DNA of 19,283 nucleotides from Akkermansiaceae bacterium (GTDB lineage: Bacteria; Verrucomicrobiota; Verrucomicrobiia; Verrucomicrobiales; Akkermansiaceae). Positions 495 through 14,162 of the stretch are shown in pieces. The translations under genes and the position numbers were made by a program. The DNA is taken from positions 1-19,283 of the forward strand of contig JALZVD010000219.1 of assembly GCA_023300205.1 (NCBI GenBank), written 5' to 3'. The stretch's first letter is position 1. Each line of letters starts with the position of its first letter. The notes under the pieces were generated by a model that had not been told where the DNA came from, made no database searches, and saw only the letters and a list, made by a program, of their open reading frames with translations.

Positions 495-2645
495 CTATAA
501 ATTCGTATTCTCCACCTCACTCAACTTACTCGTATTCTTCTTAGCGCGCTTCTGCTCGATAACCACCAAAGCCATTGCCATGCCAATAATCATTATAAAG
601 AACTCCATCCCATAGAACACCCATATATTAGTCATCGCCTTAGCACTGGTGAATCCATAATTATGCAGCCCGACTCCCAAGAAATTCACATGCCACCATG
701 AGAACACAATCACCATGAATCCAAAAATACTACAAACATGAGTCCCTATCTCTTTAATGTAACCACCCACCCTCGCATGCAGAATCACCAACATCCAGAT
801 CACGATCAATAAAGCCCCGTTCTCCTTAGGATCCCAGCCCCAAAACCGCCCCCATGAATCCGCCGCCCAGATCCCCCCAAGAATAGTTCCAACCAAACTA
901 AACAGTAACGTAAACGCCACCATACCATAAACGATCTTCGTTAAATACTGTCTCGTCTCCTTATCATCGACCACCCCAAAGGCCCTACCGATAATATAAA
1001 AATGTGAAATACAAGCAGCCACAATACCACCCATATATCCAAGCGTAATAATAACCACATGAGTAGAAAGCCAGTAGTTAGACTTCAACACCGCAACCAG
1101 TGGATCCATCTGATCTCGGGCATCACTAATCTCAAAACTCTTTGCAAGAAATAACACAGCGACTCCAAAACAAATCGCCACACCTAGCATAATACCCTTC
1201 TTCCGTATCCATTCGATCAAAAGCAGCAAGAACAATCCAGCCCCCACTATAAATGGCATCGTATCATAAAGAGTCCCTATCGGTGACCGATCCATGATCC
1301 ATGAACGATGCACAATACCTGCAATCGTAAATAAACAAGCCAAACTCGTTAACCCAAATACACACCAATACAAAATACCTCCAACTCTAGTTCCTATGCT
1401 AAGACACATCGCTATAAGAAGAACCCCTGCAAAAATAAGTAACGCTATCCCATTATTAAAATAGCTCATCTTGTTTAAAAGAATCTCACCAGAAATACTT
1501 CCACCCTCATCACCGAAATCCACATGGTTCTCATATTTCTTCTTAAATGCACCAAGAGTATCTAACTGCTTCCCTGCATCACCAGAACTAAACGCCATTT
1601 GTAGCTTCTCCAGCTCAATCACTTCATTCATTAAACTCTCAGAATACTGCACATCTTTTAACGGCGAAGTATAAGCCTGAAAAACAGGCAAATAATCAGC
1701 AAAAAATCCATCTCCATTTTCACCAGATAATTTCCCATACTTCTTTTTAAGAGCTCCTATTTTATCCGCATAAATATCATACGCCTCCAAAGTAGGCCTC
1801 GCTACTTTCGCGAACCTAGAACCAATCGAAGACCAAGCCTCCTCTCCCTCTGTGGGATTGATGATCAACTTAGAAAACTCCCCTAAATCACTAATCCCAC
1901 TCAGAAAAATAGCATCAGAAACAATCTTACCATCCAAAACCCCAATCACCTGTAAAGTATCACTACCCGCCTGTTTCACCCTCGCAATCTGATTGTCCCT
2001 ATTATTACTCACAAAGAAACTCTCTAAACTATAAAAGCCTGACGCCTTCTTCACCTCATCATCAATCAGAAACGGATTCTTTAAAGAATGATAACTCTGC
2101 AACAACCTAGCAAAAGCGTACATCTGCTCCTGTTCCTTATCGAGGCTCTTCTCTCCACTATCTTTAATCTGCTTATGTATGGCCTCATAAGCATTCTGAA
2201 GTTTACCTAAATACGGTTTGATCTGGCTAAAGCTATAGCGGTCTCGCAGCGTCTTCACACCCATTCCCACCTGCTCTAAAATATCAGAATTATCAACTCT
2301 GAAAGTAGGCAACTGATCCGCCATTTCAGGGCGAAACATCACATCCATCAACCACTCAGTCGGCGTCAGTTTTTCCTTCTCTCCGTCTACGATAACCTTC
2401 ATCCCACGGTCACCATGCATCGAATACATGTAGCGCCTTGCAAGAGTCTGAAACGGCTTAATTCTACCTCCATCCTGCACGGGCAAGCTACGCATCTCTT
2501 CCACCACACGCTCATCCCACTTAGTATATCCATTCACCTCCTTCGGCTTAGAAGGCACAATCAAACTTCTTATCCCCATCCCAGCTACCGCGAGGATAAT
2601 AAGCATCGTTAATGAGAACCCTAAAAACCTAACTTTTTTATTCAT
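495..2645 (-). CDS. ccsA: Cytochrome c maturation protein CcsA/ResC with long N-terminal periplasmic domain
   Basis: CcsA, with ResB, exports heme and ligates it to apocytochrome c on the outer side of the membrane (System II). The 716-residue protein has an N-terminal membrane anchor (about 8-30), a large extracytoplasmic region (about 31-390) and then a polytopic CcsA domain (about 395-695). The tryptophan-rich heme-handling WWD motif is at about 596-612 (WGRFWGWDPKENGAL). Candidate heme-ligand histidines are His447, His529, His652 and His661. The GGRIKPFQTLAR stretch near 59-70 recalls a motif in the long CcsA forms of Bacteroidetes and Planctomycetes (from memory). Plain CcsA is about 320 residues, so the first half is an extra module. 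The start codon overlaps the resB end by 8 bases, which suggests translational coupling. The stop is TAG. Confidence 0.92.
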   Translation of the reverse strand: MNKKVRFLGFSLTMLIILAVAGMGIRSLIVPSKPKEVNGYTKWDERVVEEMRSLPVQDGGRIKPFQTLARRYMYSMHGDRGMKVIVDGEKEKLTPTEWLMDVMFRPEMADQLPTFRVDNSDILEQVGMGVKTLRDRYSFSQIKPYLGKLQNAYEAIHKQIKDSGEKSLDKEQEQMYAFARLLQSYHSLKNPFLIDDEVKKASGFYSLESFFVSNNRDNQIARVKQAGSDTLQVIGVLDGKIVSDAIFLSGISDLGEFSKLIINPTEGEEAWSSIGSRFAKVARPTLEAYDIYADKIGALKKKYGKLSGENGDGFFADYLPVFQAYTSPLKDVQYSESLMNEVIELEKLQMAFSSGDAGKQLDTLGAFKKKYENHVDFGDEGGSISGEILLNKMSYFNNGIALLIFAGVLLIAMCLSIGTRVGGILYWCVFGLTSLACLFTIAGIVHRSWIMDRSPIGTLYDTMPFIVGAGLFLLLLIEWIRKKGIMLGVAICFGVAVLFLAKSFEISDARDQMDPLVAVLKSNYWLSTHVVIITLGYMGGIVAACISHFYIIGRAFGVVDDKETRQYLTKIVYGMVAFTLLFSLVGTILGGIWAADSWGRFWGWDPKENGALLIVIWMLVILHARVGGYIKEIGTHVCSIFGFMVIVFSWWHVNFLGVGLHNYGFTSAKAMTNIWVFYGMEFFIMIIGMAMALVVIEQKRAKKNTSKLSEVENTNL

Positions 2646-3855
2646 CTGCTTGTTTATTTCCCTTCTCTTTTCTAGTTTCTCTTTCTAAATACTTACCTAA
2701 TTTCAATGAAAAATGCACCAATAACCCAATCGCTGAAATCCACATACACACCTTAGGCCATTGATCAGCCGGATTAGTCACAATCTCAAAACCTGAAAAC
2801 TCCAGTCCATTGATAGGCTCATTCCAGTTCGCTTGATACAACGTAAAACCCTTATAACGCATCGGATGATTCATCTTAATCGTCTGCACTTTCTCCCGCT
2901 CTTCGTCCTCCCCCGTCCAAGCTATCGTGCTCTGGAATTTACTCGGCCTCCGCGTCCCCGGATAATATTCACCTACTGAATTGATCAAATCCACCGAAAA
3001 TGGCATCTTCCAGATCTCATTCGGCATCTCTATCCCATAAAGCTTACCCCCCACGGAAAATGTCTGCGGAAACCCCACTGATCTACACAAAAGCAACTTC
3101 CTACTAGGCTCCCCATTCTTTGGTTTTACCAGCACATAACAACCATAATTAAAATAATCCTTACTAGGATCCATCTTTGCCGGATGTAGGAAAAACCCAT
3201 CCACTATCTCGCCAGAATCATTTCCCCGCGCCCTTGAACTTGCATTCACAACCACCACATTTTCACGGAAATGCCTAACCTCCAAATCAAATGGTAATGC
3301 CTTAAAAGTAAAGCGCCTCATCCTATCGCCAAGATCAGCTACCTGATCATGCTTGATCACATAAGGACGCTGCTTAACACCAGACTCATCAAACTCTGAC
3401 AATTCAATCGAGGTATAATCAAACTTTGTCGCATAATCATAAGTCTCCCCCTGGAAAACCTCCATCTTACCATGAATAGACTGATGGTGATCCACAAACC
3501 CTACCACTAAAAGCGACACAATCCCAAAATGAGAAATAACCACACCTATATTTCTCCAGCCCTTACGTAGTCTAATAATACCTCCAAGCAACATATTAAC
3601 AAACAACACGCAACAAACCCAATAAGCTCCCGGTAGCGGAATATAAGTCGACTTCCCCCCATTAATTTCAGGGATAACAATAAAATTCTTATGGCTGTAA
3701 TACTTATCTAATGCCTTAGATAAGCCAATATCCTGCATCTCAAGCGTACTAAACCACACCAACAATCCCAATAAAACTAAACTCACCACACAAAGTAAAT
3801 AACTAGAAAAGAAATCTACGAGATACTGAAGGATATTTTTTCTCTTTTTAATCAT
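2638..3855 (-). CDS. resB: Cytochrome c maturation protein ResB/CcsB
   Basis: ResB is the partner of CcsA in System II cytochrome c assembly. The 405-residue protein shows the family layout: membrane segments near 15-32, 72-92 and 103-121, a large periplasmic beta-rich domain (about 125-365) and a last membrane segment near 370-390. The motif MNHPMRYKGFTLYQANW near 325-345 is characteristic of ResB proteins, which typically carry NHPLRYKGYTFYQ. The gene lies 1 base after the lipoprotein-like gene and overlaps ccsA by 8 bases, so all three are almost certainly one transcript. The short Lys/Arg/Glu-rich cytoplasmic tail ends GNKQADE. Confidence 0.9.
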   Translation of the reverse strand: MIKKRKNILQYLVDFFSSYLLCVVSLVLLGLLVWFSTLEMQDIGLSKALDKYYSHKNFIVIPEINGGKSTYIPLPGAYWVCCVLFVNMLLGGIIRLRKGWRNIGVVISHFGIVSLLVVGFVDHHQSIHGKMEVFQGETYDYATKFDYTSIELSEFDESGVKQRPYVIKHDQVADLGDRMRRFTFKALPFDLEVRHFRENVVVVNASSRARGNDSGEIVDGFFLHPAKMDPSKDYFNYGCYVLVKPKNGEPSRKLLLCRSVGFPQTFSVGGKLYGIEMPNEIWKMPFSVDLINSVGEYYPGTRRPSKFQSTIAWTGEDEEREKVQTIKMNHPMRYKGFTLYQANWNEPINGLEFSGFEIVTNPADQWPKVCMWISAIGLLVHFSLKLGKYLERETRKEKGNKQADE

Positions 3856-4685: not shown

Positions 4686-5768
4686 ATGAGCACACACGCA
4701 CAACTAACTCCAGAGGCGGAACAGCAACTCCGAAATCAGAAAAGGAACTCCACCATTTCCGCTATCATTATTTCGCTCCTATCATGCGCACTGCTTGTAG
4801 CCGTCCTTTTCTACATAGCCTTGGCATCCTTCTCTAAAAACCAAGAAGAACTAGTAACCTATAGCTCAGGCGCTGAATCTGACGAGAAAATCACCAAACC
4901 TGAGATGTCAAACGAAGTCGCCAAAAAACCATCATCGCCAACATCGTCAATGTCTAAAGTGATCACCTCAAGTACTCCATCACCTACAGCCGTGCCCGTC
5001 CCAGATGTTACCATCGATGAACCATCCCTAGACTTTGGAGATGGAAATGACTTCGGAGACGGCTGGGGAAGTGGCTCCGGTAAGGGTAGCGGTGGCGGCG
5101 GCATATCATTCTTTAAGCAAAGTGTAAAAGCCGAGCGTATTGCATACGTCATTGACTACTCCTTATCCATGAGAGGCAATAACAAGTTTGAGCTCATGAA
5201 AAAGGAACTCTCTAAATCTGTCAAAGCATTACCAGACAACGTAGACTATCAGCTCATCTTCTTCGCTGGACCTGCATGGGTAGCAGGTGATAAGGTCATT
5301 AGTGGAAAAGGCGGCCACAAAAACTTCACGATCAACAGTGCTGGTACAAAATACGAGTGGTCAACTACAAGCGACGCTCATGGATACCGCCCAAAGGTCA
5401 AATCAAAGATGCAACAACCAAAATGGATAAAATCTAGCGAAGGTAAGCGCAAGCAAAGCCTCAAAATCATCAAAGACACACCCATGGTCTACGGCACCGT
5501 CTGGGAATACCCCCTAGAAATGGCTCTTAACATGGAACCTCAACCTGATGTCATCTTCTTCATGACTGATGGATCTGCTGGACCAAAAAGTGAATCCGTT
5601 GCCAGAAAACTTGGCGCTGAAGCTAAAAGAGATGGAATCATCATCAACAGTGTGGCTCTCATGGAACCAAAAGCGAAAAAAGCCATGAGCGATATGGCCA
5701 AGCGTAGCGGTGGTCTCTTCACCGAGGTCCAGGCAAACGGTAAAATCATCCAACACGATTTAAAATAA
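4686..5768 (+). CDS. Membrane-anchored von Willebrand factor A domain protein, copy 1
   Basis: A 360-residue protein with a short basic cytoplasmic N-terminus (1-22), one membrane segment (about 24-46), a Ser/Pro-rich stalk with a Gly-rich end (about 55-140), and a vWA domain (about 150-355). By the positive-inside rule the vWA domain is extracytoplasmic. The metal-binding MIDAS motif is complete: Asp157-x-Ser159-x-Ser161, Thr271 (YGT) and Asp295 (FMTDG). It should therefore bind a divalent ion and a protein or peptide ligand; the ligand is unknown. The two paralogues match almost residue for residue over the anchor and stalk, but differ strongly over about 200-255, near the MIDAS face. There is no recognisable Shine-Dalgarno sequence. 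The start is chosen because MSTHAQLTPEAEQQ is shared with copy 2. Confidence 0.85.
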   Translation: MSTHAQLTPEAEQQLRNQKRNSTISAIIISLLSCALLVAVLFYIALASFSKNQEELVTYSSGAESDEKITKPEMSNEVAKKPSSPTSSMSKVITSSTPSPTAVPVPDVTIDEPSLDFGDGNDFGDGWGSGSGKGSGGGGISFFKQSVKAERIAYVIDYSLSMRGNNKFELMKKELSKSVKALPDNVDYQLIFFAGPAWVAGDKVISGKGGHKNFTINSAGTKYEWSTTSDAHGYRPKVKSKMQQPKWIKSSEGKRKQSLKIIKDTPMVYGTVWEYPLEMALNMEPQPDVIFFMTDGSAGPKSESVARKLGAEAKRDGIIINSVALMEPKAKKAMSDMAKRSGGLFTEVQANGKIIQHDLK

Positions 5769-6099: not shown

Positions 6100-7149
6100 A
6101 TGAGCACACACGCACAACTAACTCCAGAAGCAGAACAGCAACTCCGAAATCAAAAAAGAAATTCTACCATTTCTGCCATCATCATCTCGCTTCTCTCATG
6201 TGCTCTTCTTGTCGCCATTCTCTTTTACATAGCTCTTGCCTCATTCTCTAAAAACCAAGAAGAACTAGTGACTTATAGCTCCGGTGTTGAATCAGATGAG
6301 AAAATCACCAAGCCAGAGATGACAAACGAAGTAGCTAAAAAGCCATCCTCTCCATCATCTTCCATGTCTAAAGTCATCGCTTCCAGCACTCCTTCACCTA
6401 CCGCAGTTCCAGTCCCAGATATCACCATAGAGGAACCATCCCTTGACTTTGGAGATGGAAATGACTTTGGAGACGGTTGGGGCAGCGGTTCAGGCACTGG
6501 CAGCGGTGGAGGGGGCGTATCATTCTTTAAACAAAGTATTAAAGCTGAGCGTATCGCCTACGTCATTGACTACTCAGCATCAATGAGAGGCAAGAAATTT
6601 GAACTCATGAAGAAAGAACTCGCTAAGTCTGTTAAAGCCTTACCAGACTCTGTAGACTACCAGCTCATCTTCTTCGCAGGTCCAGTATGGGTCGGAGGTG
6701 ACGAGATTCATGGAGGCGGTAAAGGAGAAACCGTCTCATTCACACGTGATGGTAAACCATACTCTTGGAGAGGTAAAGATGCAGCTGACGTCCCACGCGC
6801 AGAATGGCTTAAATCTGATAAAGAACAGCGTAAAAAAAGCTTACAGATCATCAAAGATACTCCTATGATCTTCGGCACTAGATGGGATCTCCCCATCCAA
6901 TACGCTCTCGATATGACCCCAAAACCAGACGTCATCTTCTTCATGACTGATGGCACCGCAGGCAAGGACACTGGCTCCACTGCTAAAAAAATAGGTAAAA
7001 ATGCTAAAAGAAAAGGAGTAATCATCAATTGCGTGGCCCTTATGGAACCTAAAGCAAAAGACGCCATGGCTGATATAGCCAAGCAAACCGGTGGCATCTT
7101 CACTGAAGTCAAAGAAAACGGTCGAACAATACAGCACGACTTAGAATAG
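6100..7149 (+). CDS. Membrane-anchored von Willebrand factor A domain protein, copy 2
   Basis: A 349-residue paralogue of the preceding gene with the same plan: basic N-terminus, membrane segment (about 24-46), Ser/Pro and Gly-rich stalk (55-140), vWA domain (150-345). The MIDAS residues are intact: Asp157-x-Ser159-x-Ser161, Thr270 (FGT) and Asp294 (FMTDG). Residues 1-62 differ from copy 1 only at position 40 (Ile for Val). The region 196-245 is rewritten and about 10 residues shorter, with Gly- and charge-rich sequence (for example GDEIHGGGKGE). Conserved anchor plus divergent ligand face suggests two receptors or scaffold subunits that share one partner in the membrane but bind different targets; this is inference. 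The stop is TAG. The next gene starts 86 bases downstream. Confidence 0.85.
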   Translation: MSTHAQLTPEAEQQLRNQKRNSTISAIIISLLSCALLVAILFYIALASFSKNQEELVTYSSGVESDEKITKPEMTNEVAKKPSSPSSSMSKVIASSTPSPTAVPVPDITIEEPSLDFGDGNDFGDGWGSGSGTGSGGGGVSFFKQSIKAERIAYVIDYSASMRGKKFELMKKELAKSVKALPDSVDYQLIFFAGPVWVGGDEIHGGGKGETVSFTRDGKPYSWRGKDAADVPRAEWLKSDKEQRKKSLQIIKDTPMIFGTRWDLPIQYALDMTPKPDVIFFMTDGTAGKDTGSTAKKIGKNAKRKGVIINCVALMEPKAKDAMADIAKQTGGIFTEVKENGRTIQHDLE

Positions 7150-8263: not shown

Positions 8264-10690
8264 ATGAAAAAATCACTCACTAGCCTCATCTACCTAACCT
8301 GCATCGTTCTAGTCTGTATGATTCCGGCTACCTCTGCACAAATCGGAGGATCGCCTAACCCTTTTGGCTCAGGACACAGTGCTAACTCATCCACATCATC
8401 CATCATCAGTAGCGCTAGCTCCATCAAGCCGGGTGAGAAATTCAAAATAGCACTCAAGCTCAGCCACCCTCATCAATGGCACTCCTACTTCCATAATGAC
8501 GGCATAGGCATCTCTAAAGCACCAGCAGTAACGTGGACACTCCCAGAGCGCCTCAATGCATCACCTCTATCATTCCCTACCCCACACTCCATAGACTCCT
8601 TTGGGCTAAATTCATACGGATACAACGGCACAAACTACTTCATCACCGAAATCACCCTCCCCAAAGAACTCACCATCGGTCAATCATATCAAATCACCGC
8701 AGACGCATCATGGCAGATCTGTAAAGAAAGCTGCATTCAAGAAAAAGCAAAACACACCATCACAATCACCGCCTCAGAAACCACCGTTACAAATCCCCTC
8801 TACAACCAAGAACTCAAAGACTATCAGCCAAAATACATTCCCTCACAAACACCACCCGCTGATTGGAAAATCACTGCCACTGAAAGCAACAAAGACATCG
8901 AAATCACCATCTCATCGAATACCAAATTCCCAGAAGACATCAAATTCTACGAATACAATGGCCAACTCGATGCTCAGAAACCCATCAACATCACCAATCA
9001 AGAAAACACACTCACCATCTCAGCTAAGTTCAACGAAGGAAATGACTTCTCCTCAACACCTGCAGAAAAATTAGACCACATCAGCGGCATCCTCCACAGT
9101 CCTTCCACCCCCTTATCTGCCAAAAGCCACAGCATATTCATCAACACCGCTTGGCTAAAGAAATCTAATGAAACTCCAATCACTCAAAGTCAACCTGCTA
9201 AAGTAATATCAGAAACTCCAGAACAGACAGATCCAGAAAGCAACGCCAAAGAAATAGCCACTAAATATGACCTAGACTCTAAAATCAGCATCATCACACT
9301 CGACCGCTTAGACGATGAAGGTAACGCCATCGATGACGCAGGTAACATCATCGAGAAAGAAGAACTCTTCACTGATGCAGAAGGAAATATCACCGATGCA
9401 GAAGGAAACATCATAGGTAAAATAGAAAAAACCACCTTCCTCTTCGCCACTGTCCTCATCTTCTTCGGCGGACTCATTCTCAACCTCATGCCATGCGTGT
9501 TCCCAGTTCTTGGAGTAAAAGTCCTAGGCTTCGTTCAGCTCTCAGGAAATGACCCTAAGAAAATCAAAATACACGGCATCGTCTTCACCCTCGGAGTCAT
9601 CATCTCCATGTGGATACTCGCCGCCGTCATCCTCACTATTCGTGAAACACCTGGCCAGTCAGTAGCTTGGGGTAATCAGATGAAAGAACCTAAATTCGTA
9701 GGATCTATGATCATCCTGATGACCATGTTTGCCTTAAATCTCTACGGCGTCTTCGAAGTAGGAACCTCTCTCACCAGTGCAGGAGGCAAGCTGCACGCCA
9801 AGAAAGGCTACGAAGGATCATTCTTCAGCGGTATCCTCACCACCCTCATCGCCACACCTTGTGGAGCGCCCCTCCTCGCCACCGCCATGACTTACACCCT
9901 TCAGCAGACCATTCTCCTCGCTATGATACTGTTCACAGTTTTTGCCCTTGGCGTAGCAGCACCTTACCTCGTGCTGTCATTCTTCCCAGCACTCATCAAT
10001 AAACTACCTCGCCCAGGAAACTGGATGGTCACCTTCAAGAAATCCATGGCATTCCCTCTCATGGCTACCGTCGTTTTCCTCATGACTGCATTCATTTCTC
10101 AGACCGGTAAAGAAGGCATCATCCTCATGCTCTGGTCACTCGTAATACTAGCAACCGCTGCATTCATCTATGGCACATGGTCACCACCATTTATAGCCAA
10201 GACTAAACGCTACATCCTCGGCTTCGGACTCTCCATCATCATCGCCGCTTGGGGCGGACACCTCGGCTACCAAGCCATGAATACCACTCCAGAAAAACAG
10301 CAACCTTCCATCGTTACAAACCCAGATGACATCCATAGCTGGACACCCTGGAAACCAGCACTAGTAGACCAAGAACGATCCAAAAAACGCATCGTCTGGA
10401 TAGACTATACCGCAGATTGGTGACTTACCTGCCTAGCAAATGAGAAGCGTGTCTTCTCAAACAAAGAAGTAGTTAACCTCACTCTTTCAAGCAACGTCAG
10501 CAAAATCAAGCTAGACCTCACTGATGATAAAGAAGCTGAAGACAAAGAACTACAAAGAACCAAAAAAGGCGGAATCCCACTCATGATCATCTACCCAGCT
10601 AACCCAGATCGTCCAGGCGTATTCCTTGATGGCACCGTATCACCTGCAGATGCTCTAAAAGCACTCAAATACGCCATCAAATACTCCTAA
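8264..10690 (+). CDS. dsbD: Thiol:disulfide interchange protein DsbD with in-frame UGA, probable selenocysteine (Sec720)
   Basis: DsbD carries electrons from cytoplasmic thioredoxin across the membrane to periplasmic thiol proteins. The start is taken at ATG 8264, which gives a clean signal peptide (MKKSLTSLIYLTCIVLVC, cleavage near TSA-Q25); an in-frame ATG at 8210 gives an unlikely leader. The order is: DsbD N-terminal domain with Cys153-x3-Cys157 in WQICKESC; a less conserved periplasmic part; acidic GN-type repeats (about 346-384); a membrane domain from about 392 with Cys411 (NLMPCVFP) and Cys533 (TPCGAP); and a C-terminal thioredoxin domain (about 700-808). The TGA at 10421 replaces the first cysteine of that domain (TADW-U720-LT-C723). 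The frame continues 88 codons with normal thioredoxin features (GGIPLMIIYP, FLDGTVSPADAL) to TAA. A SECIS-like hairpin follows the TGA. Without recoding, the redox centre would be lost. Confidence 0.88.
10421..10423 (+). other. In-frame UGA codon read as selenocysteine (predicted)
   Basis: This TGA is codon 720 counted from ATG 8264, between TADW and LTC. DsbD proteins normally have TADWCLTC here, so the UGA replaces the nucleophilic first cysteine and leaves the resolving Cys723 intact. A redox-active U-x-x-C in place of C-x-x-C is the classic setting for bacterial selenocysteine. Confidence 0.85.
10441..10459 (+). promoter_or_regulatory. Candidate bacterial SECIS hairpin inside the dsbD coding region
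   Basis: TGAGAAG (10441-10447) pairs perfectly with CTTCTCA (10453-10459) around the loop CGTGT. The stem begins 17 bases, and the loop 24 bases, after the TGA. The loop has G in its second position, followed by U. This fits the published bacterial SECIS pattern: loop about 16-37 bases downstream, a small loop, and G among its first two bases. A weaker basal helix can be drawn between 10422-10428 and 10469-10474 with one bulged U, which would put the UGA at the base of the structure as in E. coli fdhF. SelB would be the loop-binding partner. Confidence 0.75.
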
Positions 10691-10704: not shown

Positions 10705-11610
10705 CTAAAGCCCTAACACCTCAGCAATCAGCGCCATTCGCACAGGCACCCCATTCTGAGCCTGCTCAAAATAACGCGCTTGAGGTAACCCATCTACAGC
10801 CTGCTGAATCTCATTCACTCTAGGCAATGGATGCATTAGCGTCGCATCACCCTTCATCATAGCCACTACCTCTGGACTAAATATAAACGCATTTCTTACT
10901 TGCTGATATTCATCTAAATCATCAAACCTCTCCTTCTGCATCCGCGTATCATAAATCACATCAGATTGCGCTACCACCTCTTCAGTAAGTTCGTGATAAA
11001 CCCCATCACCATCCTTTACATAATCACTAGGCATCTGAATCACCTCTGGAGCTACAAAAGAGATTTCAACCCCTTCATAATTTCTCAAAATCTTCGCCAA
11101 CGAATGCACCGTACGCCCATACTTTAAATCCCCCACAAAGGAAACTTTCAGCCTCTCTTCACCTATCCGATGATGCTTAGCAATAGTAAACAAATCTAAT
11201 AAACTCTGAGTAGGATGCTCTCCTGCCCCATCCCCACCATTTAAAACTGGCACAGGTGAATAATGCGCAGCCAACTTAGCCTCCCCCTTCACCTTCGTCC
11301 TGATCGCAATCACATCAGCATACCCACCTACTATCCTAATAGTATCCTCCATTACCTCCCCCTTAGTCTGTGAAGAAAACGTAACGTCAGTCTCAGAAAC
11401 CACATTCCCACCCAGTCGCATCATCGCCACTTCAAAAGAAAGTCTTGTCCTCGTTGACGGCTCATAAAACAGCGCTCCTAGAATTTTCCCATCACACATC
11501 CCAGAGCCACCAGATGCAATCACCGACTCCATCTCCAAACTCCGCGCCATAATGGCATCTAGGTCAGCACGAGTGAACTGATCCGCCGTAAGAACATGCT
11601 TTATCTCCAT
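10705..11610 (-). CDS. pyrB: Aspartate carbamoyltransferase catalytic subunit
   Basis: PyrB condenses carbamoyl phosphate and aspartate to carbamoyl aspartate, the committed pyrimidine step. The 301-residue protein carries the carbamoyl-phosphate motif FYEPSTRTRLSF (STRTR at about 52-56), the HPTQSLLDLFT motif (about 132-142) and the C-terminal MHPLPR loop. ATG 11610 is preferred over an in-frame GTG at 11619, because the protein from ATG (MEIKHVLTADQF) matches the family's usual N-terminus. It converges on dsbD, whose predicted true stop lies only 14 bases away. The three minus-strand genes upstream read in the same direction after an 86-95 base gap; they have no evident link to pyrimidines. 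No pyrI is visible beside it. Confidence 0.96.
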   Translation of the reverse strand: MEIKHVLTADQFTRADLDAIMARSLEMESVIASGGSGMCDGKILGALFYEPSTRTRLSFEVAMMRLGGNVVSETDVTFSSQTKGEVMEDTIRIVGGYADVIAIRTKVKGEAKLAAHYSPVPVLNGGDGAGEHPTQSLLDLFTIAKHHRIGEERLKVSFVGDLKYGRTVHSLAKILRNYEGVEISFVAPEVIQMPSDYVKDGDGVYHELTEEVVAQSDVIYDTRMQKERFDDLDEYQQVRNAFIFSPEVVAMMKGDATLMHPLPRVNEIQQAVDGLPQARYFEQAQNGVPVRMALIAEVLGL

Positions 11611-12599: not shown

Positions 12600-14162
12600 T
12601 TAATCTTCGTATTCAGGTTGCCCTACAGTTCTAAAACCAATGTATGGACGGCGTAAATCTCTAGCATCTTTATCATCCTCTGATGGCTCTAACCAGCGCC
12701 GAGAGGTGGCCTTTAAATCATCTGTGTAGGATCCCCCGCAAATCACCGGCTTTTTATCAGTAGCCATTGGATCAGTTTCTGGCTTACTGCGCTTCAGAGT
12801 CCACTCAGACACATTACCAGCCATACCATAGATTTTATTTACAGTGATATCCTCACTCTCTTGATCCACCGCTCCCCATGATGAAGCCTTCAAATCAATC
12901 AACTTAGACCCTGAGGTCAATAGCGCCGCACGCCATTCCATCTGTGTCGGCAACCTTCTTGAATAACACTCAGCATAAGCATACGCATCCCACCAGTCCA
13001 CTCCCACCACCGGACAGTTCACACTCATTTTTAAGCCGTTCCACTCTCTCCCGCTCCTTGCAGCAGCATACATTCCATCCCAGTCCTCTGGAATATAAGA
13101 TATTTTATAATCAGGCTGATTTTCATGCTGAATGATCTCTACCAAATCTGGAGTCAAATCCTTAAGAAATTTAGCATACTCACCAATCGTCACCTCATGC
13201 GCGTCAATCGTAAACTCTCTCAACCTCACATCCTTCTGCCCCTTCATAAACTCCTTCACATCCACCATCACCACATCGATTAAATCTCGCCTCTTAGGAG
13301 CCTTCTCACGTAGAGAAATCACCCCCACCAGACCTACAAGCACGAGTAAACCTGAAATAATACTCACATTCCTCAATTTCTGCTTACTTATACCTGCCTT
13401 CTTAATCAACATCGTCGAGCTCTTAATCGGAGATACTGCGATCGGCTCTACTAGCTGCCTCTCCACACTATCGGAAAGCTCTTTCACCTGCTCCCATGTG
13501 AGAGGAATTTCTCTCTCACTGTCAGCCATATAGCCCAGAAGTGATCTTGTACGTGTAGCCCCAGGCTCATCAGTCTTTAATACCTTCAGAAAACTCTGCC
13601 CAAGCATCACTTTATCTTGGGTAGACACAGCATGATCTCGCTCACCACCCACTGCCATATTCACAATTCGGCACATCCCTGTATCAGAAATAAATAACTG
13701 ATTCACCGCTAGTGGCAGAGATGCCAGCTTCTTAGACTCTAGATACAAATTCGCATCAGCCACCTGCTTAAGCAAATGCACAACCTCCTCCGGCTTCAGC
13801 TTCTCACGGGTTAGCACCTTCCCCTCAAGAGTATCCCCAGAGATCTTCTCTCGCACATAGAAACAAATACCCTCCTCCCTCACAGCCTCAAACACAGACC
13901 CTATAAGTGGATGATCCACCTGCGCCTTCGTCCGCACATCACTAAGATAAGCAGCGATCACCGCTTCATCATGATGCACCGCACGGTTGAGACTATCAAT
14001 AATCACCTCACGGTTCACAGACACCTGATTCGCCAACCATGTACGAGTCGACTCCCCCTCATACACTAGCTTTTGCAAGTAATAATCTCCCACCTGTATT
14101 CCAGGCATTAATCTCTGATCCATCTCTGACATATATTCTAATAACTCTCTATAAACTGCCAT
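12600..14162 (-). CDS. Membrane protein with degenerate kinase-like domain fused to a formylglycine-generating-enzyme-like domain
   Basis: A 520-residue protein in three parts. Residues about 19-195 follow the Ser/Thr kinase order (IQVGDYYLQKLVYEGEST, then DHPLIGSVFEAVREEGICFYVREKISGDTL) but lack catalytic signatures: the glycine loop is VYEGEST, the VAIK lysine is replaced in REVIIDSL, the HRD loop is replaced by ASLPLAVNQLF, and DFG by NMA. It is therefore a pseudokinase. A membrane segment follows at about 267-284. Residues about 295-514 form a sulfatase-modifying-factor (FGE) fold: FTIDAHEVTIGEYAKF, VVGVDWWDAYAYAECYSRRLPTQMEWRAA, GMAGNVSEWT, CGGSY and IGFRTVG. The paired cysteines of true FGE near the GGSY segment are absent, so it is probably a binding rather than an oxidase domain. 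The kinase-like part should be cytoplasmic and the FGE part periplasmic. Confidence 0.8.
   Translation of the reverse strand: MAVYRELLEYMSEMDQRLMPGIQVGDYYLQKLVYEGESTRTWLANQVSVNREVIIDSLNRAVHHDEAVIAAYLSDVRTKAQVDHPLIGSVFEAVREEGICFYVREKISGDTLEGKVLTREKLKPEEVVHLLKQVADANLYLESKKLASLPLAVNQLFISDTGMCRIVNMAVGGERDHAVSTQDKVMLGQSFLKVLKTDEPGATRTRSLLGYMADSEREIPLTWEQVKELSDSVERQLVEPIAVSPIKSSTMLIKKAGISKQKLRNVSIISGLLVLVGLVGVISLREKAPKRRDLIDVVMVDVKEFMKGQKDVRLREFTIDAHEVTIGEYAKFLKDLTPDLVEIIQHENQPDYKISYIPEDWDGMYAAARSGREWNGLKMSVNCPVVGVDWWDAYAYAECYSRRLPTQMEWRAALLTSGSKLIDLKASSWGAVDQESEDITVNKIYGMAGNVSEWTLKRSKPETDPMATDKKPVICGGSYTDDLKATSRRWLEPSEDDKDARDLRRPYIGFRTVGQPEYED

Follow-up and report, generated by a model that had tools for sequence, protein, structure and literature searches.

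Does the in-frame TGA that interrupts a DsbD-type gene of an Akkermansiaceae bacterium end its protein, or is it read as selenocysteine (Sec)? We analysed the whole stretch of 19,283 nucleotides that carries the gene (contig JALZVD010000219.1, hereafter the window) together with related loci in other genomes. The single TGA falls at the position of the first cysteine of the C-terminal thioredoxin motif. Comparison with relatives argues for a selenoprotein form of an ScsB/DsbD-type membrane electron conductor, in which UGA 720 would be read as Sec; we put the probability of this reading at about 0.92. The coordinates of all features are given in Table 1.

Reading frame and domain architecture

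Inspection of the frame 8264-10690 confirmed what had been proposed from the letters alone, a single TGA at 10421 in an otherwise open DsbD frame, and the surroundings of the codon were reproduced as well: 88 codons follow it, the frame closes at TAA 10688-10690, and readthrough leaves 14 bases to the end of the convergent pyrB ORF at 10705, compared with 281 if the protein ended at the TGA. The motif at the TGA is U720-L-T-C723. Among the window's stop-to-stop frames of more than 100 codons, this is the only one that closes in TGA and continues beyond it without a stop for over 60 codons. Because it is unique in the window, and because both the codon and the frame after it are conserved in relatives, the interruption is more than a chance occurrence. 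Of 14 further window ORFs inspected, none ends in TGA. In a sample of the source genome (assembly 83% complete, 388 contigs) it is the stop of four of the 42 ORFs of at least 200 aa, one of them perhaps the Sec-DsbD gene itself, and it seems to serve there as an ordinary stop as well.

Pfam searches with the 808-aa product identified DsbD_N, DsbD_TM (60.6 bits against a cut-off of 27.1) and Thioredoxin_7, the last extending across the TGA (residues 693-779); the three DsbD domains were found in all ten proteins, nine of them Sec forms, that were run through Pfam. The sequence features by which a DsbD/ScsB-type protein is recognized are present, namely an N-terminal DsbD_N-type region with a Cys pair, a PF02683 domain with two Cys and a C-terminal UxxC thioredoxin fold. 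Residue 720 aligned to the first active-site Cys of the solved cDsbD structure 4ip1 in a single-sequence comparison (E 0.0081), and a profile comparison matched the same domain (E 1.6e-9). The predicted structure of the 808-aa product (mean pLDDT 84.8, pTM 0.62) has residue 720 immediately ahead of a helix formed by residues 721-731, and fold searches matched the domains of the model to cDsbD, nDsbD and ScsB. No solved match for the membrane domain is named among the matches listed (two fold searches, 50 matches each), which is uninformative either way.

Table 1. Features of the Sec-DsbD locus and related genes; positions refer to the window unless another stretch is named.
Feature	Position	Strand	Details
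CcsA/ResC-type cytochrome c assembly protein	495..2645	-	PF01578
ResB-type cytochrome c assembly protein	2638..3855	-	PF05140
Sec-DsbD frame, 808 aa with TGA as predicted Sec	8264..10690	+	single in-frame TGA, residue 720
N-terminal periplasmic region, ScsB-like, redox Cys153 and Cys157	8372..9163 (residues 37-300)	+	
DsbD_TM membrane domain, redox Cys411 and Cys533	9446..10090 (residues 395-609)	+	PF02683
C-terminal thioredoxin-fold gamma domain, mostly encoded after the TGA	10331..10687 (residues 690-808)	+	
Predicted Sec codon TGA, first position of gamma-domain UxxC	10421..10423	+	residue 720
Cys723, resolving cysteine of UxxC	10430..10432	+	Cys in 68/68 Sec rows and 18/18 Cys rows
Bacterial SECIS-like stem-loop inside the CDS	10441..10459	+	7-bp stem 10441-10447/10453-10459, loop CGUGU 10448-10452
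selD with in-frame TGA in N-terminal C-G-G-U motif	L009 1396-2439	-	source genome

Codon 720, selenocysteine machinery and the downstream hairpin

The genome set comprised 58 genomes, the window's own and 57 relatives, 53 of which have a match over residue 720. Read base by base in the window and 29 relatives, codon 720 is TGA in 11 of the 30 loci, TGC or TGT in 19, and nothing else; the remaining 23 genomes were taken from the match table, where no stop lies inside the match, the bases having been read in the 30 loci only. The Cys/Sec pairing at position 720, which the sequence-only reading had put forward as the result to look for in an alignment, is exact in these 30 loci. The other redox positions were followed in a full-length alignment of 86 rows (short frames dropped; the window is present twice, as are a few genomes). 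C411, C533 and C723 are retained in all 68 Sec rows and all 18 Cys rows, and C153 and C157 are each retained in 67 of the 68 Sec rows and in every one of the 18 Cys rows. Three Cys-type DsbD proteins (L035, L036 and L037) carry an N-E motif that is otherwise characteristic of Sec rows, and they are nested among such rows in the locus tree described below; they are possible former selenoproteins.

The Sec reading also called for selenocysteine genes in the genome. A selB gene scored above the cut-off in 30 of the 58 genomes, including all 11 with TGA. Where a genome has a DsbD that spans the site, TGA is found in 11 of the 28 selB carriers and in none of the 25 others (Fisher p = 3.4e-4, to be taken as a guide only since the relatives are not independent). 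These "others" are genomes in which selB is not above the cut-off, and one of them, G008, carries selA together with a tRNA-Sec; it probably uses Sec, its selB being incomplete. Overall, selA was found in 31 of the 58 genomes, and ARAGORN classified 13 of 15 fetched tRNA-Sec candidates as tRNA-SeC(tca). The source genome itself gave a mixed answer: selB and selD are present, whereas searches of the 83% complete assembly detected neither selA nor selC (tRNA-Sec). Neither a family search nor the SelA of a sister genome recovered selA, and the eight best covariance matches for tRNA-Sec proved to be ordinary Ser, Asp, Leu, Cys and Tyr tRNAs. These absences are a point against the Sec reading; we take them provisionally for sequence missing from an incomplete assembly, and selA is present in 11 of the 11 other genomes of the genus examined. 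In the sister genome G011, selA is followed by rpoN, while rpoN of the source genome has a different upstream gene and no selA alongside, and this synteny neither rescues nor excludes selA in the source genome. With its own in-frame TGA, selD of the source genome is a second predicted selenoprotein.

The bacterial SECIS (bSECIS) model set out in section 5 of PMC13188914 requires 4-16 bp in the stem and 3-9 nt in the loop, with a G within the first two loop positions, a UGA-to-loop distance of 16-37 nt and an MFE of at most -7.5 kcal/mol. The stem-loop of the window, which starts 17 nt past the TGA with a UGA-to-loop distance of 24 nt and an MFE of -9.0 over 53 nt, agrees with every one of these published values. 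The 90 Sec loci, some of which share a genome, reduce to 79 distinct stretches; the MFE fold conforms to the model in 54 of these and departs from it in 25, compared with one conforming fold in 19 Cys loci. When codons were replaced by synonymous ones, the observed hairpin arose in at most 5% of draws at 49 of the 79 loci and in more than 5% at the other 30; for the window it arose in none of 200 draws. Taken as a whole, the window's 61-nt fold has no exceptional stability (z 0.31), and Rfam returned nothing at gathering score on the window.

Imposing one common register on the 79 distinct Sec loci gave 348 paired cells of 553, and sliding it by -3 gave 350, a weak signal because the hairpin classes differ in register. 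The loci were then split by the protein motif after the TGA into classes of 38, 22 and 19 loci, a division made post hoc, after the first result; pair counts come from the window's class alone, the other two having been folded only. In that class (35 distinct rows), 91.8% of cells pair, compared with at most 62.4% in slid registers. Thirty-five cells are changed on both sides, with double changes at four pairs: one stem pair is G-C in 17 rows and C-G in 16, and another is C-G in 13 and U-A in 13. Further pair types are no more numerous than in shuffles, which ignore relatedness (399 of 500 reach the count). At the protein level, 76 of 79 Sec rows have Glu at +7, whereas 16 of 19 Cys rows have Lys there, a difference that a constraint of the stem on the protein would produce. 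Judged from these comparisons, a SECIS-type hairpin is present after the TGA, covaries and is under selection. The reading of the TGA as Sec at the first Cys of the thioredoxin motif, already supported by the pairing, by selB and by the conserved downstream frame, is further backed by this covarying element, which had no part in the sequence-only reading.

Distribution and alternative readings

We scanned GTDB species genomes with the pattern D[YF]TAxWUxxCxxN and obtained 97 stretches. The 80 of the 97 that were listed, in which two genomes appear twice, belong to Verrucomicrobiota (39), Planctomycetota (35), Kiritimatiellota (2) and Pseudomonadota (1), with three unassigned. Homology to the window protein was found in 79 of the 80, extending across the membrane and gamma domains in 68, the rest being cut or partial. 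The single pseudomonadotal stretch (L083, Litorilituus) is a chance match; the SECIS and tree counts exclude it. The pattern is close to the window's own motif, misses forms with another residue before Sec (L027 and L028, for example) and is no measure of absence from other phyla. In 387 genomes drawn evenly over the phylum the motif was present in two, one of them the window's own; Sec-DsbD is patchy across the phylum.

A locus tree of 103 rows was built without codon 720 and everything after it; its branches have SH-aLRT support only, and the tool issued a long-branch warning. Ten Planctomycetota rows are nested among Verrucomicrobiota Sec rows in this tree; another 20 branch deeply as a group that also takes in two unassigned rows. 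One way to read this topology is transfer between phyla. Seven Cys rows (L021, L025, L029, L032 and L035-L037) are nested in Sec groups, and selA is absent from five of the seven corresponding genomes. This has the look of a reversion to Cys once the Sec system had been lost, in a tree that cannot separate gain from loss. In a larger tree of 214 rows, in which proteins ending at the motif were labelled Sec from protein records alone, the Sec/Cys label changes 13 times, compared with 34-42 times in 60 shuffles. Short frames were dropped from both trees.

Two kinds of additional frame were seen next to Sec-DsbD genes elsewhere. A separate 202-codon thioredoxin-domain frame lies directly downstream in two genomes (G019:C41:124938-125378 and G031:C48:15996-16445). 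At L067 and eight other Sec loci, a small plus-strand ORF precedes Sec-DsbD about 2.1-2.7 kb upstream of the TGA, and by eye the ORF of these nine loci resembles a separate N-terminal DsbD-type domain.

Public predicted proteins gave 5004 matches. Among the best 120 of these, 87 end at the residue before the Sec position (85 recognized by script and two by eye), 32 have Cys and one has neither. No PF13899 is listed for the 87 shortened proteins, which are known from protein records and not from DNA. That 87 of the best 120 records are without the gamma domain indicates a systematic annotation error.

Taken literally, these gene calls would mean that the TGA is an ordinary stop, that the working protein has 719 residues and no gamma domain, and that the downstream frame is a remnant; conductors of the CcdA type without a gamma domain are indeed known. 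A remnant would decay, whereas in 79 of the 80 listed loci (three of them cut by a contig end) the frame stays open past the TGA with sequence that matches the gamma domain, the resolving Cys is retained in 68 of 68 rows and a covarying stem-loop follows the TGA, and we consider an ordinary stop very improbable. The sequence-only reading had held that a degraded downstream frame in close relatives would speak against Sec; the frame is conserved among them. The fragmented, 83% complete assembly from which the window comes invites the suspicion that a TGC/TGT codon was missequenced or misassembled, or that the gene is a recent pseudogene of one genome, but the identical TGA occupies the site in the loci of ten relatives and in 79 of the 80 listed pattern loci. 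Its carriers include the record of Persicirhabdus sediminis strain KCTC 22039 and Planctomycetes bacterium K23_9, the latter with a complete chromosome. The chance of an error or a recent pseudogene is negligible. Decoding of UGA as some other amino acid (Trp or Cys, by near-cognate reading), or a reassignment of the codon throughout the genome, would fit its rarity as a stop (0/14 and 4/42 in the ORF counts above). Against this, the window holds no second long TGA-interrupted frame, TGA alternates solely with the catalytic Cys codon in relatives, its carriers have selB, and the SECIS-type hairpin is under selection, all of which makes another amino acid extremely improbable.

One further proposal accepts Sec at the UGA and adds a second product: the Sec protein and a gamma-less form, made by termination at low selenium, would both be functional, and selenium supply would pick the transporter. 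The short product would retain the entire N-terminal and membrane domains, and the separate thioredoxin-domain frame just downstream in G019 and G031 could serve it. Partial termination at the UGA is normal for selenoprotein genes, however, whether or not the short form has a function, and we regard a dual-product gene as quite unlikely. A broader version, in which Sec-DsbD would be a distinct selenium-dependent class of Verrucomicrobiota, Planctomycetota and Kiritimatiellota, spread in part between phyla, with UGA acting as a selenium switch between the full and the gamma-less protein, is speculative and in our view unlikely. If the switch were real, envelope thiol reduction in these bacteria would follow selenium supply.

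Proposed mechanism, gene neighbourhood and known relatives

In E. coli DsbD, electrons pass from cytoplasmic thioredoxin to the Cys pair of the membrane domain, from there to the outer thioredoxin domain, then to the N-terminal domain and finally to clients. For the selenoprotein form favoured here, comparison of the loci strongly supports decoding of UGA 720 by the SelB/tRNA-Sec system, which the stem-loop just downstream would direct. By analogy with DsbD, electrons of cytoplasmic thioredoxin would be received by Cys411/Cys533 in the membrane domain, handed to U720-C723 in the outer thioredoxin domain and passed on to Cys153/Cys157 of the N-terminal domain, which would reduce client proteins of the envelope. 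Within the motif, the predicted Sec is the N-terminal, attacking residue; with its lower pKa and its faster exchange it might allow a quicker relay or less irreversible oxidation. Cytochrome c maturation would be a candidate client because ccsA and resB are on the same contig; envelope peroxide or methionine-sulfoxide repair may be another. Selenium would thereby be placed in the central membrane relay for envelope reducing power, and not just in soluble end-point enzymes, and periplasmic thiol reduction would be selenium-dependent in carriers. Natural Sec/Cys pairs are available for asking why a relay protein keeps Sec.

The adjacent CcsA/ResC-type and ResB genes (positions 495-3855 of the window, minus strand) correspond to system II cytochrome c maturation, and their products are possible consumers of the reductant. 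A dedicated operon was considered and rejected, the commonest neighbour family occurring in just 13 of 80 contexts, and for the same reason no client can be named from context. Elsewhere in the window, two tandem plus-strand ORFs (4686-5768, which contains a vWA domain, and 6100-7149) are nearly identical in their N-terminal parts, by eye a recent duplication, and a minus-strand ORF (12600-14162) combines a weak protein-kinase match with a C-terminal FGE-sulfatase domain.

No fitting NCBIfam model scored above its cut-off. The DsbD subfamily model NF001419 reached 129.1 bits against a cut-off of 330, and by this score the window protein is a relative, not a member, of that narrow subfamily. 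DsbD of the E. coli type (cDsbD/gamma structures 2fwe, 1vrs and 4ip1) has Cys where the window protein has its predicted Sec (UGA), and Sec likewise sets the window protein apart from ScsB (N-terminal domain of the Proteus mirabilis protein, 6c29); no scs-type neighbours were recognized among the scanned window ORFs.

The best NCBIfam match was the TsoB model NF045694, with 144.9 bits over residues 384-776, far under its cut-off of 805; the same model matches all 30 aligned DsbD homologues, Cys forms included, at E <= 0.001. Like the window protein, TsoB is a selenoprotein with a DsbD-like part. It is listed as rhodanese/DsbD fusion-like, with two Sec in UxxxxU (PMC13188914 Table 1). The window protein differs from TsoB as listed there in having one predicted Sec in UxxC and no rhodanese domain (none found by Pfam at E 0.001). 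Besides TsoB, no DsbD is named in Table 1 of a catalogue from 2026 that covers 119 families and subfamilies of prokaryotic selenoproteins (PMC13188914). Within the main-text passages searched, no description of a full-length Sec-DsbD, its hosts or its SECIS was found.

Two other groups of selenoproteins share the UxxC motif with the predicted Sec domain. The "Thiol:disulfide interchange protein" of Geobacter and Syntrophus is also a UxxC thioredoxin-fold oxidoreductase, with PF13098 in place of the PF13899 of the window protein. The other belongs to cd02953, which we take to be the DsbD-gamma class. The Global Ocean Sampling survey of 2008 reports 22 UxxC sequences under "Trx-like 2 (Thiol disulfide interchange protein)", cd02953 (PMC2398784 Table 2). 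These have the same UxxC as the window protein, and the available passages give them without membrane architecture, host or full-length protein. They are probably metagenomic fragments of the Sec-DsbD family, and the Sec domain itself was very likely already counted in that survey. Sec, which the sequence-only reading did not know as a common form of DsbD, has two precedents at the level of domains, the UxxC sequences of cd02953 and TsoB with its DsbD-like part.
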